Under the pieces are notes generated by a model. That model was not told where the DNA came from. It did no database searches and was given only the letters and a program-made list of their open reading frames with translations. A stretch of DNA of 64,000 nt, from contig JAFSBW010000072.1 of assembly GCA_017437095.1 (NCBI GenBank), forward strand, positions 1 through 64,000. The letters run 5' to 3'. Source of the stretch: Oscillospiraceae bacterium. GTDB lineage: Bacteria > Bacillota > Clostridia > Oscillospirales > Oscillospiraceae. Position numbers and translations under genes: made by a program. The stretch's first letter is position 1; every line of letters starts with the position of its first letter. Shown here piece after piece: positions 40,946-59,284 of the stretch.

Positions 40946-41557
40946 ATGGAAAAGAAGATCATTACCATCAGCCGTGAGTTTGGCAGCGGCGGCCGCAGCG
41001 TTGGCCGTAAGGTTGCTGAAAAGCTGGGTATCCCCTTCTACGATAAGGAGCTGGTAGACCAGGTTGCGCTGGAATCCGGTTTTGCTCCCAAGTATGTGGA
41101 GGAAAACGGCGAGCATTCCCCGGGTAAGAGCATGTTTTCCTATGCCTTTGCCTCCCAGGGTGTGCCGGGGATCATGAGCGGACTGTCTACCGCGGATTTC
41201 CTTTGGAACATCCAATGCAATGTGATCATGCAACTGGCGGAAAAGGGCCCCTGCGTGATCGTGGGGCGCAACGCCGACTACATCCTGAAAGACCGCAGCG
41301 ATTGCCTGCACGCCTTTATCCACGCGGATAAGGATTTCCGCGCAGACCGGATCGTGCGCCTTTACGGCGAATCGGAAAAAAGCCCGGAATCCCGCCTGAA
41401 CGAAAAGGACAAGCGCCGCCGGGTAAACTACCAGCACTACACCGGCCGCACCTGGGGCGAAAGCCGCAATTACGACATCTGCCTTAGCACCAGCCGCCTG
41501 GGCGTAGAAGCCTGCGCAGACCTGATCGTAGCGCTGGTAAAGGCCAACAAGGAATAA
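40946..41557 (+). CDS. Cytidylate-kinase-like protein
   Basis: The 203-residue protein starts KKIITISREFGSGGRSVGRKVAEKLGIPFYDKELV, the signature of the cytidylate-kinase-like family common in gut Clostridia, with a modified P-loop (GSGGRSVG). Further matches are CVIVGRNADYIL, FIHADKDFR and the lid-like KDKRRRVNYQHYTGRTWG. Family members often occur in several copies and are not the essential Cmk, so a role in nucleotide metabolism is plausible but unproven. AAGGAGG precedes the ATG. Confidence 0.85.
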   Translation: MEKKIITISREFGSGGRSVGRKVAEKLGIPFYDKELVDQVALESGFAPKYVEENGEHSPGKSMFSYAFASQGVPGIMSGLSTADFLWNIQCNVIMQLAEKGPCVIVGRNADYILKDRSDCLHAFIHADKDFRADRIVRLYGESEKSPESRLNEKDKRRRVNYQHYTGRTWGESRNYDICLSTSRLGVEACADLIVALVKANKE

Positions 41558-41580
41558 GCCAAAATAAAAGCCAGGGGCTT

Positions 41581-41786
41581 TTGCGTGTTATCCTTAACGG
41601 AAACACGCAAATGAATTGCAACGGCATTGCATGAATCGACACGGTGTGTCATGAATTGCAGTAAACTGCATGATTTGCCCTACGGGCATTATATTCGTGG
41701 CAATTCAATTCATGGAGTCGGCGTTACGCCGGCGAGAAATCATGGCGCAGCCAATTCATGATGCTTTCGCATCAATTCATTGATAA
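41581..41786. repeat. Micro-hairpin array 1 (ATGAATT-linked)
   Basis: A 9-bp hairpin (TTGCGTGTT...AACACGCAA, 41581-41610) is followed by small stem-loops: TGCAA/TTGCA, GACAC-GGT-GTGTC, GCAGT-AA-ACTGC, TGCCC-TAC-GGGCA, CGGCG-TTA-CGCCG, TGGC-GCA-GCCA, GATGC-TTTC-GCATC. Between them are near-constant linkers ATGAATT, ATGATT or their reverse AATTCATG. Stems differ from each other while linkers repeat. It fills most of the 409-base gap after the cytidylate-kinase-like gene. Confidence 0.85.
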
Positions 41787-56071: not shown

Positions 56072-56992
56072 TTATTTCTGCTCCCAGATCCTTACTTCCG
56101 GCTCTAGGCGGATGCCGGAATTTTGGAACACCATATCGCTTACCTGGCGCAGAAGCGCTTTGAAATCCTCCGCGGAGGAAGCGCCCAGGTTTACGGCAAA
56201 GCCGGCATGCTTGGTAGAAATAGCGGCATCGCCTACCCGGAAGCCCTTCAGCCCCGCCTGGTCGATCAGCGCCGCGGCATAGCCCCCAACGGGCCGCTTA
56301 AAGGCAGACCCGGCAGAGGGCATATCCAAAGGCTGGGATGCGGAGCGCTTTTGCTGGAGGGTGCGCATGGTGGCGCGGATGTCCTCCGGGTCAGCCGGGG
56401 TCAGGGCAAAATCGGCGCTGAGGACGATGCCCCCCTCCTCTTCCAGCCGGCTGTGCCGGTAGGAAAAGCCCATTTCGCTGCCGCTAAGCTCCCGCACAGA
56501 GCCATCCATAGCCATTACCCGCACGGCCTTGCACACAGCGCTGATCTCTCCGCCGTAAGCGCCGGCGTTCATATATACGCCGCCGCCCACCGTGCCGGGG
56601 ATGCCGTGGGCAAATTCCAGACCGGAAAGGCCGTTTTTTGCGGCAAATACGGCGGCCCGGGTCATGGTCACGCCGGCGGCAATGCGCAGGGTGGTTTCGT
56701 CCAGAAGCTCCATGCCCTCCAGGCAGTCCTTCAGGCAAACAACAAGGCCCTTGATCCCCTCGTCCGGGGCAAGCACATTGGTGCCGGCGCCCAAAATACG
56801 CACCGGCGCACCCTCCTGCCGGGCAAAGGCCAGCAGCCGGGAAAGCTGGGCATCATCGGCGGGAAAGGCCATAGCTTCCGCCGCGCCGCCAATGCGCAGA
56901 GAGGTATGCTTTGCCAAAGGCTCTTGTATAAAAATCGTAACTTCCGGTAAAGAAAGCGTAATTTTCTTTTGGAAATCGGTTAATTCCGTCAT
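56072..56992 (-). CDS. murB: UDP-N-acetylmuramate dehydrogenase
   Basis: MurB reduces UDP-GlcNAc-enolpyruvate to UDP-MurNAc with NADPH and FAD. The 306-residue protein has the FAD-binding VRILGAGTNVL, GIPGTVGGGVYMNAGAYG, the catalytic Ser in MPSAGSAFKRPVGGYAAALID and the terminal Glu segment. It is a type II enzyme lacking the extra loop of the E. coli form. In many Clostridia murB-whiA-dnaE lie together, as here, although the usual rapZ is missing. Confidence 0.96.
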   Translation of the reverse strand: MTELTDFQKKITLSLPEVTIFIQEPLAKHTSLRIGGAAEAMAFPADDAQLSRLLAFARQEGAPVRILGAGTNVLAPDEGIKGLVVCLKDCLEGMELLDETTLRIAAGVTMTRAAVFAAKNGLSGLEFAHGIPGTVGGGVYMNAGAYGGEISAVCKAVRVMAMDGSVRELSGSEMGFSYRHSRLEEEGGIVLSADFALTPADPEDIRATMRTLQQKRSASQPLDMPSAGSAFKRPVGGYAAALIDQAGLKGFRVGDAAISTKHAGFAVNLGASSAEDFKALLRQVSDMVFQNSGIRLEPEVRIWEQK

Positions 56993-57086
56993 AAAAACAA
57001 CTCCAATGCATAGTTAAAAGCATTATATCATACTTGGCCTGTTTTTGCAATTGTTACCCTTCTTAAATTTCGGTAACAAAAGAAGC

Positions 57087-57165
57087 AATTATAAATTACG
57101 AATTACAAATTACAAATTAGAAATAATTCATTATTCATTACAGCGCGGGACGGGAAACCCGTCCC
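57087..57165. repeat. AATTACAAATTAC run and GGGACGGG palindrome
   Basis: AATTATAAATTACGAATTAC and following units (57087-57120) form a short tandem repeat. GGGACGGG-AAA-CCCGTCCC (57147-57165) is an 8-bp perfect hairpin followed by CTACG. Both lie in the 432-base gap after murB. The remaining bases from 56993 hold nothing else I recognise. Confidence 0.75.
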
Positions 57166-57210
57166 CTACGCTCATGAGATTGCCGCCGTTAAAAAATGAA
57201 AGCTATTGTT

Positions 57211-57423
57211 GTCGATATGCCTTCGGCTCGATATTTTTGCCGGTGGCAAAATCGATATAATTCTGCGATGCAGAATTTCTATATGTTGCCTATAGGCAAC
57301 GATTTCGATATAAATCCTCTCTCGCCCCGCAGGGCATATCGAATGCGAAGCATATATCGATTCCCAAAGGGAAATAGCGAAAATCCCGCAGGGATTTATA
57401 TCGACGGACGGCACAGCCGTCCA
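57211..57423. repeat. Micro-hairpin array 3 (TCGATAT-linked)
   Basis: Nine small stem-loops appear in order: GCC-TTC-GGC, TTGCC-GGT-GGCAA, ATTCTGC-GAT-GCAGAAT, GTTGCC-TATA-GGCAAC, GCCC-CGCA-GGGC, ATGC-GAA-GCAT, TTCCC-AAA-GGGAA, AATCCC-GCA-GGGATT, GGACGGC-ACA-GCCGTCC. They are separated by TCGATAT, ATATCGA or close variants. Loops are 3-4 nt. All stems differ. The array abuts the stop codon of the helicase-loader gene. Confidence 0.9.
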
Positions 57424-57424
57424 A

Positions 57425-58261
57425 TTATAATTCCAATACGCTTTTCATGCGCCAGTTTTTGCTCATATCCCGGCTGATGCGCAGCAGATTGCCTGCCGCC
57501 TTTTCCAGGATCCGCCCGGCCAAGGCTTCGTCGATGGCGGTAAGCTCCTCGGGGTAAAGCTCCGTAGAGATCACCGTAGGCAGATCCTGCAAATAGCGGT
57601 GGTTTAAGATCTCAAAGGCCAGCATAATGTCCGCCCCCGTGGGGTTGGTGCGGCCCTGAGGGCCAGCGGGGGTCTTGAGCAGGTCGTCAATATACAGCAC
57701 CGGGGCGTTTTTGATCCTTTCCAGCTCCTGGGCGGCTTCCCTGCTTTCGTAGCGGCCGGCCTTCAGCGCCTGGGCGGATTGGCACCAGGCCATATACACC
57801 AGCTCCCTGCCCTCCAGCATCAGCTTGCCGGCAATGGCGGTGCATAAATGGGTCTTGCCGCTGCCGCTTTGCCCGCCCATAAAAAACCAGCCCTTAGGGT
57901 CTTGGGCGTAGCCTTCAGCCACCTGCTTGGCCTTGGCCTGCCAGGGGGTTTTGGCCTGGAACCTATCGAAGCTGTAGCTTTGCAGCACATCCTTCAGCCC
58001 GGAGCGCTCCATGGCCGCCAGGGTCTTGCGCAGCGCCCGGCAATCGCACTCCCGGGATACGATCTCCCCGTTTTTGATATAGGGAATAAAGCCGTTGTTA
58101 CGGCATTTTCGGCAATCGTAGCCGGTGTAAGGCCCTTCCTGCTCCAGAAGGGTTTTTAGCTTCATCTGCAAAAACTCCTCCGGGCTACAAAGTGATACCG
58201 AGCGGCCCGAGATCCTGCCGAGCTTTTGTAAAAGCGTCGTTTCCATGTCCAGTTTTTCCAT
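57425..58261 (-). CDS. DnaC/DnaI-like helicase loader
   Basis: The 278-residue AAA+ ATPase has a zinc-finger-like N-terminal part (YDCRKCRNNG...ECDCRAL), Walker A GGQSGSGKTHLC (about 128-139), Walker B VLYIDDLLK and a sensor-1 Ser in PTVISTELYPEEL. Such proteins load the replicative helicase; this form is typical of phages, integrative elements and some clostridial chromosomes. It starts 77 bases inside the upstream gene, with an excellent AAAGGAGGA site, so the long overlap is real. The pair has no phage structural genes, integrase or att repeats nearby, so it may be a domesticated remnant. Confidence 0.88.
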   Translation of the reverse strand: MEKLDMETTLLQKLGRISGRSVSLCSPEEFLQMKLKTLLEQEGPYTGYDCRKCRNNGFIPYIKNGEIVSRECDCRALRKTLAAMERSGLKDVLQSYSFDRFQAKTPWQAKAKQVAEGYAQDPKGWFFMGGQSGSGKTHLCTAIAGKLMLEGRELVYMAWCQSAQALKAGRYESREAAQELERIKNAPVLYIDDLLKTPAGPQGRTNPTGADIMLAFEILNHRYLQDLPTVISTELYPEELTAIDEALAGRILEKAAGNLLRISRDMSKNWRMKSVLEL

Positions 58262-58925
58262 AATTCCTCCTTTGTGTGTGGGCCCAGGCTTTTACGGCAG
58301 CTTTCCAATCCCGCATAGGGGCGTTGCCTAAATACCAGCCCCGGGCTGTGTAATACTCAACAAAATACCTGGCATCTACCGAAAGCCCCTGGCTTTGGCA
58401 AAAACCCTCTACTTGAGAAACAGAAGGAGGAGAAAATGTTTTTTCATCCGGCGAAGCCGCCAAGGTTTCAGCCCCCGCCATAGCCTGCTTGGAAGCTTCG
58501 CCGGATAAAAGAATATTATTCTCTTTCTTATTCTCTTTCTCCTTATCCTTATTATTCTCCTTGCCTTTTCTAGGTTCTGAAAAAAACCCAGGGGTTTCGC
58601 TGGGTTTTTCAAGAAACCCAGGGGTTTGGTCAGGTTCTTCCAAATCCGTATAGGCCGTTGCTTCATCCTCGGCTTTCTTTTTTCGCCCACCTTTTTTGCC
58701 GTTGATGCGGCTGGCTTCAATACGGGCCTGATAAGCCTGGGCATCCCGCAGGTATCGCCCCCTTAGGCTTGGCCAAATGTGGCGCAGCGTTCCGGCAAAG
58801 GTTGGCTCCTGGCCAGCGTTCAGCTTCAAAAGCCCTCTTACCAAAGCGCCGAACTGGCTATCCGTTAAGGTGGCAAATTCTTCCAGATAGCTGGCGTACA
58901 CATGCACGCAGGGCATGATATCCAT
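58185..58925 (-). CDS. Replisome-organiser-like protein (DUF6291-like N-terminus)
   Basis: The 246-residue protein has an N-terminal domain (about 8-75: YLEEFATLTDSQFGALVRGLLKL, then ASRINGKKGG) like those of phage replication-initiation proteins. A long charged, low-complexity linker rich in Lys/Glu/Asn (about 85-165) follows, then a C-terminal helical region with a DnaD-like YFVEYYTARGWYLGNAPMRDWKAAVKAWA. Such proteins bind the origin and recruit the helicase-loader complex. In the ATG-ATT-ATG start region, AAGGAGG fits the second ATG (58925). Its 3' end overlaps the loader gene by 77 bases. Confidence 0.75.
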   Translation of the reverse strand: MDIMPCVHVYASYLEEFATLTDSQFGALVRGLLKLNAGQEPTFAGTLRHIWPSLRGRYLRDAQAYQARIEASRINGKKGGRKKKAEDEATAYTDLEEPDQTPGFLEKPSETPGFFSEPRKGKENNKDKEKENKKENNILLSGEASKQAMAGAETLAASPDEKTFSPPSVSQVEGFCQSQGLSVDARYFVEYYTARGWYLGNAPMRDWKAAVKAWAHTQRRNYGKTGHGNDAFTKARQDLGPLGITL

Positions 58926-59284
58926 AATCATCCTCCTTTTAAAATCACGGCAATACCGCTCGTTTGTTCGCACTTATAATAGCACATTTGTTTTACAATG
59001 TCAAGGGCGATATGATCTATTTTCCAAAATTATTTCATATTTTCTCATTTTTGAACACAAAATTAAAAAGCCTGCCCCTTTCAAAAGGCAGGCTCTTAAA
59101 GCATCAAAAACCGCAATTATTCATTATATCGCAGCTGCAATGCGAAATCCCAACGCAAAGGGCTGTCGAGGACGCCAGCCCCTACGATAGCATCTGCAAC
59201 AATGGTAAAATTTGGCGCTTAATTTTCGGTTACTTTTTGACCGGCGGCGCATAATAACCTTGCAACAAAAAAGGAGGTATCCAA
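58926..59284. other. 359-base gap with a hairpin and a palindromic repeat
   Basis: AGCCTGCC-loop-GGCAGGCT (59069-59094) is a terminator-like hairpin followed by CTTAAA. GGGCTG...CAGCCC followed by CTACG (59160-59186) is another member of the palindrome/CTACG repeat group. No gene longer than 90 codons looks credible here. Confidence 0.6.

Follow-up and report, generated by a model that had tools for sequence, protein, structure and literature searches.

The array of small hairpins at positions 57212 to 57404 of a 64,000 nt window (the whole stretch analysed; Oscillospiraceae bacterium assembly GCA_017437095.1, contig JAFSBW010000072.1) is read, with a probability of about one half, as a copy of a dispersed intergenic DNA repeat that is likely spread and kept as folded single-stranded DNA and probably moved in trans. 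Copies, a dyad layout, several linker types and strand-specific loop and mismatch rules were found; that DNA is the folding molecule is inferred. An array follows groEL in this genome and is missing there in the relatives read, and identical terminators were found with elements at different tRNA genes.

The array and its copies

The stretch from 57205 to 57430 was read letter by letter. The linkers are oriented, with TCGATAT on the left and ATATCGA on the right, and the array is thus made of two inverted half-arrays (Table 1). In plus-strand order, the left part is TCGATAT-GCCTTCGGC-TCGATAT-TTTTGCCGGTGGCAAAA-TCGATAT-AATTCTGCGATGCAGAATT-TCTATAT-GTTGCCTATAGGCAAC-GATT-TCGATAT-AAATCC-TCTCTC and the right part is GCCCCGCAGGGC-ATATCGA-ATGCGAAGCAT-ATATCGA-TTCCCAAAGGGAA-ATAGCGA-AAATCCCGCAGGGATTT-ATATCGA-C-GGACGGCACAGCCGTCC. 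Hairpins with loops of 3-4 nt and dissimilar stems lie between the linkers, of which four are exact TCGATAT, three exact ATATCGA and two degenerate. An earlier sequence-only reading had described nine hairpins on a constant linker, each a perfect palindrome and no two stems alike. The array is real, as are the short-looped hairpins, but two linkers are damaged, all are oriented, and 57312-57335 forms no simple hairpin and starts inside one strand of the closing stem. The dissimilarity of the stems holds inside the window array only, as closely similar stems, in an unchanged order, are found elsewhere in the genome. That reading had not noticed the inversion between the halves, the variety of linker types or the loop rule described below.

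TCGATAT occurs 17 times on the two strands of the window, against 4.24 expected. When one linker mismatch was allowed, six linker-flanked hairpin units were counted in the array region, against a maximum of one and a mean of 0.002 in 1000 dinucleotide shuffles, the control by shuffling that the sequence-only reading had proposed. Perfect hairpins with stems of at least 5 numbered six, where the shuffles gave a mean of 0.78 and a maximum of 5. Folding z-scores of the array were -5.9 and -6.1 for RNA of the two strands and -6.4 for DNA. In favour of a chance or low-complexity artefact, a pattern of linkers alone also matches by chance when collections are large, hairpin spacers being absent from 282 of 410 triple-linker matches. 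However, this explanation is already refuted by the shuffles, the copies in the genome, the recurrence across the order and the loop rules over 458 distinct hairpins, and it retains practically no probability. Another 226-nt stretch of the window (41551-41776) contains six perfect hairpins without known linkers.

The genome-wide search for TCGATAT-flanked palindromes that had also been proposed was made in the window's own genome (G000; 1.73 Mb in 85 contigs, 77% complete) and gave 27 matches to TCGATAT-N6-30-TCGATAT, 26 of them with spacers judged by eye to be hairpins; the remaining match (L010) appears to sit inside a coding sequence. The stem order GCC, TTTTGC(C), AATTCTGC is common to C17, C34 and the window, and the order AAATCCC, then TGGC(C) or TTCCC, then ATGC is found at C19 and in the window, with TCCGC as the third stem at C41. 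Stems that differ within an array are therefore homologous between copies. Near-identical copies with unrelated flanks are also present in G034, a genome of another family, where the similarity begins sharply at the linker. Near-identical copies at unrelated sites make a dedicated copying process, as the sequence-only reading had suggested, plausible. Near-identical arrays in direct repeat (L341 and L342 on contigs 9 and 21 of G034, and L125) flank one or a few open frames, HTH-like or ATPase-like, and could act as cassette borders.

Besides TCGATAT, the linkers GCGATAT, GTGAAAT, GTGAAGT and GTGATGT were found in the same genome and GTGATAT in others, giving the overall consensus KYGAWRT. Most elements have one linker type, with its reverse complement in the opposite half, and mixed elements at C10, C71 and C78 each carry one TCGATAT among GCGATAT linkers. 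Half A or half B is solitary at some sites (L001, L004). The closing stem follows the linker and first hairpin in other elements too, the paired strands being TCGATATAAATCC:GGATTTATATCGA in the window and GAAATAAATCC:GGATTTATTTC, GAAATCCGTCC:GGACGGATTTC, AAGTTTGCCC:GGGCAAACTT and GATGTTTGCCC:GGGCAAACATC elsewhere. The 5' arm of the first hairpin thus has two possible partners, one local and one long-range; in the window, the left closing strand competes with the local hairpin at 57381-57397. In a scripted count, 51 of 255 first units had a downstream complement of at least 10 nt, as had 40 of the 86 hairpins that immediately precede a run, against 12 of 349 later units.

Distribution

Exact TCGATAT triples were found in two of 40 genomes, the window's own and G034, and in none of the 24 other genomes of the same genus. 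KCGATAT arrays were present in 6/40 genomes, with none for the reversed-pattern control. GTGAWRT triples were found in 79 of 197 genomes of the order, a count from which chance matches without hairpins (e.g. G036, G134, G147 and G161) were not subtracted, and the control matched in 5. In a sample of 249 genomes of the phylum, 22 of 247 outside the order matched, close to the control (12/249). None of the matches listed from outside the order has hairpins between linkers as here, the one in G354 being a palindrome of another plan. Among 80 loci listed from a named collection, 21 have two hairpin spacers, and all 21 are titled Clostridia, Oscillospiraceae or Christensenella. Carriage by viruses is disfavoured, as most linker triples in viral contigs lack hairpin spacers, though four (L196, L203, L209 and L289) have two.

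Gut-1 as part of a sister element

An Rfam search of the window returned a single weak match, to Gut-1 (RF01706), which at 21.4 bits is below the gathering score of 50; sister elements in the same genome reach it. The window copy shows the Gut-1 plan of tandem hairpins but has TCGATAT in place of the (G)UGAAAU linker. The genome gave 31 matches at E<=0.001 and 35 at E<=0.01, with 15 of the 35 over the cut-off and scores of up to 76 bits, and matches were found in 18 of the 40 genomes, this one included; among 14 control genomes searched, E. coli gave matches below the cut-off. Loci were taken from the best-listed matches (60 stretches) together with those of two earlier genome searches, and around the ten matches read first the same element was found, partial in some cases, with the linker GTGAAAT/ATTTCAC. 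The GTGAAAT-type sister elements contain Rfam Gut-1, and the earlier statement that no named element has this plan is thus not supported. An excerpt of the original description places Gut-1 among likely noncoding RNAs, with sequences from human gut only (Weinberg et al. 2010, PMC2864571). No description of the element beyond that 2010 paper was found in the open-licence literature, by searches several of which demanded many terms jointly.

Loop and mismatch rules

Hairpins next to six exact linkers were collected, with the E. coli stretches left out, and filtered for at least 4 pairs and at most 2 mismatches, giving 458 distinct hairpins. Read in the KYGAWRT direction and summed over linkers, the closing pair is C-G in 440/486. 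Triloops are TNC in 159 and GNA in 1 of 271, tetraloops are TNNC in 137 and GNNA in none of 189, and the other loops follow different patterns, TTT and TAAA being common. The rule holds separately in each linker type with enough units. Among 2776 pairs of the pooled hairpins, the stem mismatches were T·C or C·T in 87 cases, G·A or A·G in 2, A·C in 24 and G·T in 16. The opposite strand therefore reads C(GNA)G and C(GNNA)G loops with G·A mismatches, which are in tandem 36 times. G·U pairs would make up 0.6-0.9% on either strand, compared with 6.2% for 83 distinct tRNAs from these loci, which are predicted tRNAs whose pairing is constrained by the predictor.

The GNRA loops of RNA do not allow GNYA. 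As 57 of 133 TNNC loops would read GNYA on the other strand, they are not RNA GNRA loops, and GNRA or UNCG loops were rejected as the driver on the loop counts. GNA and GNNA loops with at least two G-C pairs are described, in the section of PMC4686876 available, as DNA mini-hairpins that resist nucleases and are extraordinarily stable, with a melting temperature of 78 C for GCGAAGC. The loop, mismatch and G·U pattern fits single-stranded DNA better than RNA. As the energy model hardly separates the strands, this claim leans on published loop stabilities and on mismatch counts. REPs (repetitive extragenic palindromes) of E. coli offer a partial parallel, with C-TNNC-G loops in 7 of 25 from three K-12 stretches.

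Fold of the whole element

Left and right linkers are complementary, and the fold predicted for the whole element is accordingly a ladder in which the linkers pair into 7-bp helices and the hairpins stand at the junctions. In minimum-energy DNA folds of both strands of 81 elements whose halves each have three or more exact linkers, 84% of left-linker bases on average were paired with right linkers. With its two damaged linkers, the window copy is a poor example of this fold, but a slightly longer stretch of the window does pair the outermost linkers as DNA. Since solitary half-elements exist, the full ladder would not always be required.

Siting at gene ends and tRNA genes

With long open frames taken as genes, six of the eight TCGATAT sites in the window's own genome have an inward-pointing stop codon no more than 21 nt from the outermost linker (L001 21, L007 16, L014 20, L020 3, L022 20 and L025 1 nt); of the other two, L004 separates divergent genes and L011 is located upstream of the start of a gene. 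L022 is the window copy, and the sequence-only reading was correct that it abuts the stop codon of a helicase-loader gene, the outer hairpin H0 ending 2 nt from the stop (57425-57427, minus strand). The further suggestion of a 3' untranslated region (UTR) structure specific to that transcript was not borne out, because groEL, a purine nucleoside phosphorylase-like gene and many tRNA genes also have such elements behind them, and at the tRNA genes a terminator comes in between.

The tRNA-linked list has 25 rows and 22 distinct elements, with arrays within 330 nt downstream of the tRNA. All 22 distinct GTGAAAT arrays lie, judged by eye, beyond a T-tailed hairpin, in the order tRNA, T-tailed hairpin, array, with half B first where discernible. 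This T-tailed terminator takes the place that H0 has in the window. An identical terminator, GAAAAAGACCTTGTCGAAAGACAAGGTCTTTTTCAACGAAATAAATCCC, stands behind tRNA-Pro in G000 and behind tRNA-Tyr in G035, from another family, and one terminator stem, CTCCGATGC, follows both tRNA-His and tRNA-Leu in G000, suggesting that the terminator seems to travel with the tRNA-linked element rather than to be its target.

groEL was found in 39 of the 40 genomes, and 28 of its 3' flanks were readable. An array is present in one, that of the window's own genome, where TAAGAG is followed by TCGATAT and no T-tailed hairpin starts within 100 nt. No array follows groEL in the 27 relatives read, and in 16 of these a T-tailed hairpin starts within 100 nt. 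Another dispersed-looking repeat, e.g. CATTGCGAGGAGCGAAGCGACGTGGCAATCC with a mirror part, lies shortly downstream of groEL in relatives (L358, L369 and L356).

The site after tRNA-Gly(gcc) was compared at 21 loci of the same genus, with one tRNA copy per genome; those of the own genome and G020 are cut by contig ends. GTGAAAT elements are present in G009 and G004, and elements with degenerate linkers in G016 (GTGAAGT-like) and G022 (GTGATAT-like). G002 has an element, and G003 a remnant, after the next tRNA, and the remaining 13 loci have no element in the 260 nt after this tRNA. Between G004 and G009, one stem has changed on both sides (GCCC/GGGC to GCGC/GCGC) while the linkers are unchanged, which agrees with the earlier proposal that stem pairing is conserved over stem sequence. 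Another G004 stem has a mismatch, several loops have changed within the TNC/TNNC class in the linker direction, and the terminator stems of the two differ completely. The same site is thus seen both with and without an element, at groEL and within the genus at tRNA-Gly, between species rather than strains.

Candidate mobilising enzymes

Mobilisation by Y1 transposases of the IS200 type was rejected, as these do not co-occur with the arrays. An IS200/IS605 transposase gene (NF033573, 149.9 bits) lies ~600 bp from a GCGATAT element on contig 33 of G000 (L345), which is 4.2 kb long and holds two such elements. NF047646, the REP-associated tyrosine transposase (RAYT), matched in 15/40 genomes, with two over the cut-off, and some of the matches are IS200-type genes. 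Presence of the REP transposase and of Gut-1 is associated within the genus (Fisher p 0.005 to 0.017), but NF047646 matches are missing from G027, G034 and G035, each with about 30 Gut-1 matches. No KYGAWRT array was found in the flanks of 11 REP-transposase-like genes (250 nt upstream and 330 nt downstream). Mobilisation by a RAYT, as for REPs, is thus weakened, since the co-occurrence does not extend beyond the genus and several RAYT genes carry other REPs.

Interpretation

On each strand, the hairpins of the 3' half, reading ATATCGA, are mostly C(GNA)G and C(GNNA)G, and the tandem G·A mismatches lie in this half as well. Under the reading as a DNA repeat, each strand, once single-stranded, would thus expose its 3' half as a series of mini-hairpins of great stability. 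The linker may serve as a recognition tag, by analogy with GTAG in REPs, insertion would prefer gene 3' ends just after a stop codon or tRNA, and a putative enzyme would probably mobilise the element in trans. A bolder version, held more tentatively and with odds of clearly less than even, is that an order-wide mobile DNA travels as single-stranded 'hairpin trees' of about eight mini-hairpins on paired linkers, tuned to DNA by their GNA/GNNA loops and sheared G·A pairs, with the linker as a swappable identity code copied concertedly across the entire element, an own terminator allowing harmless settling behind genes and tRNAs, and the Gut-1 RNA as a piece of it.

Several observations weigh against reading the family as mobile folded DNA. 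The unit filter caps the total of mismatches, though not their kind, and folding programs give the two strands nearly equal energies. The trimmed window copy (L022) pairs 0/21 left-linker bases with right linkers, and solitary half-elements occur. No target-site duplication was recognised at the copies examined, and the Y1 and REP transposase searches found no moving enzyme: Y1 presence tracks neither Gut-1 nor KCGATAT arrays (Fisher p 0.75 and 0.38), G027, with 34 Gut-1 matches and 98% complete, has no Y1 or REP transposase match, and several of the 11 REP-transposase flanks carry GTAG-tagged hairpins, e.g. GTAGGGGCGGGTCATGACCCGCCC.

The alternative that the element is a structured RNA, as Rfam files Gut-1, acting as a transcribed noncoding RNA, a 3' UTR stabiliser or a terminator, is unlikely. 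It would account for the position just after inward stop codons, for RNA folding z-scores of about -6 on both strands and for a groEL gene followed by the array alone. However, G·U pairs are few, without a clear preference for either strand (16 against 24), tetraloops are not limited to GNRA, and the tRNA-linked arrays lie beyond the terminator. The favoured hairpin form goes with one orientation of the linker, so that a transcript of either strand would show it in only half of the hairpins, which also counts against RNA. REPs and BIMEs (bacterial interspersed mosaic elements) are bound by gyrase, IHF or Pol I, and DNA repeats bound by a host nucleoid or topology protein for chromosome organisation, spread by homologous recombination or template switching, would likewise be intergenic, 3'-biased and, in some genomes, tens of copies strong; correction of one arm by the other through template switching would also produce stems of almost strict Watson-Crick pairing. 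This explanation is given somewhat less credence than a structured RNA, since linker types differ within one genome and the family is patchy within the genus, unlike a constant host binding site, and since tandem G·A mismatches biased to one strand (87 against 2) would not survive correction between the arms.

Less probable again is a passenger of a retroelement or other hairpin-targeting machine, inserting beside terminators as group IIC introns do or homing to GRNA-looped DNA hairpins as diversity-generating retroelements (DGRs) do. The tRNA-linked copies do adjoin terminators in one orientation, and the phage DGR target hairpins described in an excerpt of PMC3240598 have GC-rich stems and GRNA loops and need stem structure rather than stem sequence. 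Against this, the elements are short, no gene belonging to them is seen, and the terminator seems to be carried by the element. If the family is indeed a mobile DNA repeat, the Rfam family would be part of a mobile DNA element and not an RNA gene. Gut bacteria of a large order would have a repeat class with concerted linkers, stems free to change as long as they pair and loops chosen for stability as DNA. The family would then offer naturally occurring data on selection for the folding of single-stranded DNA, a clear search for an enzyme reading the linker and a warning to annotators that covariation alone does not show RNA function.

The window copy and its surroundings

Table 1. Positions of the parts of the array and of adjacent genes in the window
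Feature	Position	Strand	Remarks
Half A	57212..57311	+	Linker and hairpin units, TCGATAT orientation; stem order much alike at C17 and C34 of G000
Half A hairpins	57219-57227, 57235-57251, 57259-57277, 57285-57300		GCCTTCGGC, TTTTGCCGGTGGCAAAA, AATTCTGCGATGCAGAATT, GTTGCCTATAGGCAAC
Half A linkers	Starts 57212, 57228, 57252, 57305; 57278-57284		Exact TCGATAT; degenerate TCTATAT
Half B, inverted	57305..57404	-	Weak Gut-1 match, minus strand 57331-57406, 21.4 bits
Half B hairpins	57324-57335, 57343-57353, 57361-57373, 57381-57397		GCCCCGCAGGGC, ATGCGAAGCAT, TTCCCAAAGGGAA, AAATCCCGCAGGGATTT
Half B linkers	Starts 57336, 57354, 57398; 57374-57380		Exact ATATCGA; degenerate ATAGCGA
Closing stem, left strand	57305..57317	+	TCGATATAAATCC; complement of 57392-57404, 13 nt, 100%
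Closing stem, right strand	57392..57404	+	GGATTTATATCGA; perfect 13-nt pairing with 57305-57317
Outer hairpin H0	57406..57422	.	GGACGGC-ACA-GCCGTCC; gene-proximal end of array
DnaC/IstB-like ATPase gene (helicase loader)	57425..58261	-	PF01695 27.3 bits, PF00308 26.1 bits
murB	56072..56992	-	Next gene downstream of array, 219 nt away

A scan for terminator-like sites in 56900-57700 found four, against 0.7 expected; five T in unbroken succession occur at none of them. A GTAG-tagged REP, GTAGGGGACGGGTTTCCCGTCCC, is located at 57147-57169 on the minus strand, 42 nt from the array; it resembles the hairpins with this tag beside several REP-transposase genes in the genus, and is adjoined by AT-rich imperfect direct repeats, AATTATAAATTACGAATTACA and AATAATTCATTATTCATTACA, in 57087-57142. 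A gene for a DUF6291 protein (58188-58973) precedes that of the helicase loader on the minus strand, and the pair may be the replication module of a mobile element. The loader has one close paralogue in its own genome and one close match in G005; it was rejected as a conserved neighbour of the array, the remaining 31 matching genomes giving weak matches.

Comparison with known systems

Like CRISPR (clustered regularly interspaced short palindromic repeats) arrays, the element alternates a constant short motif with variable parts. On the arrangement of the array itself, a CRISPR-like array was rejected, as the spacers are not unrelated sequences but palindromes that recur by position between copies, in two inverted halves and at many sites. 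DGR target hairpins and group IIC intron sites share GNNA-type DNA hairpins, a reliance on structure over sequence and a location near stop codons or terminators (PMC3240598, in part), but these targets are single hairpins and not dispersed hairpin arrays. The Gut-1 RNA, three hairpins spaced by constant (G)UGAAAU, covers one half only and is filed as a noncoding RNA, whereas the full elements around its matches share the plan of the window element; an order-wide element appears to have been mis-filed in part as RNA.

IS200/IS605 elements carry two hairpins, one close to either end and both on the same strand. Strand-specific single-stranded DNA hairpins near element ends are likewise a feature of IS200/IS605-derived elements in the parts available of PMC8266576 and PMC6006769; the element studied here differs in its many hairpins per half and its dyad symmetry. 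The family also resembles REPs and BIMEs with TnpA-REP, which, in excerpts of PMC8266576 and PMC3733652, are intergenic, present in many copies and built of a short tag beside a hairpin capable of forming in single-stranded DNA, with inverse units. Many intergenic copies with inverse units were found here too. In E. coli the GTAG tag is crucial to TnpA-REP, while other REP systems tolerate tag changes (PMC8266576, in part). The palindromes of the present family are flanked by neither GTAG nor CGTC but by a 7-nt linker of one of the six types, each half carries several different hairpins where a REP has one, the terminator seems to be carried along, and no cognate tnpA-REP gene flanked by the repeat was found in the 11 flanks read. 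The elements would work like REPs, and the family is read as a new variant of REP/BIME-like repeats.
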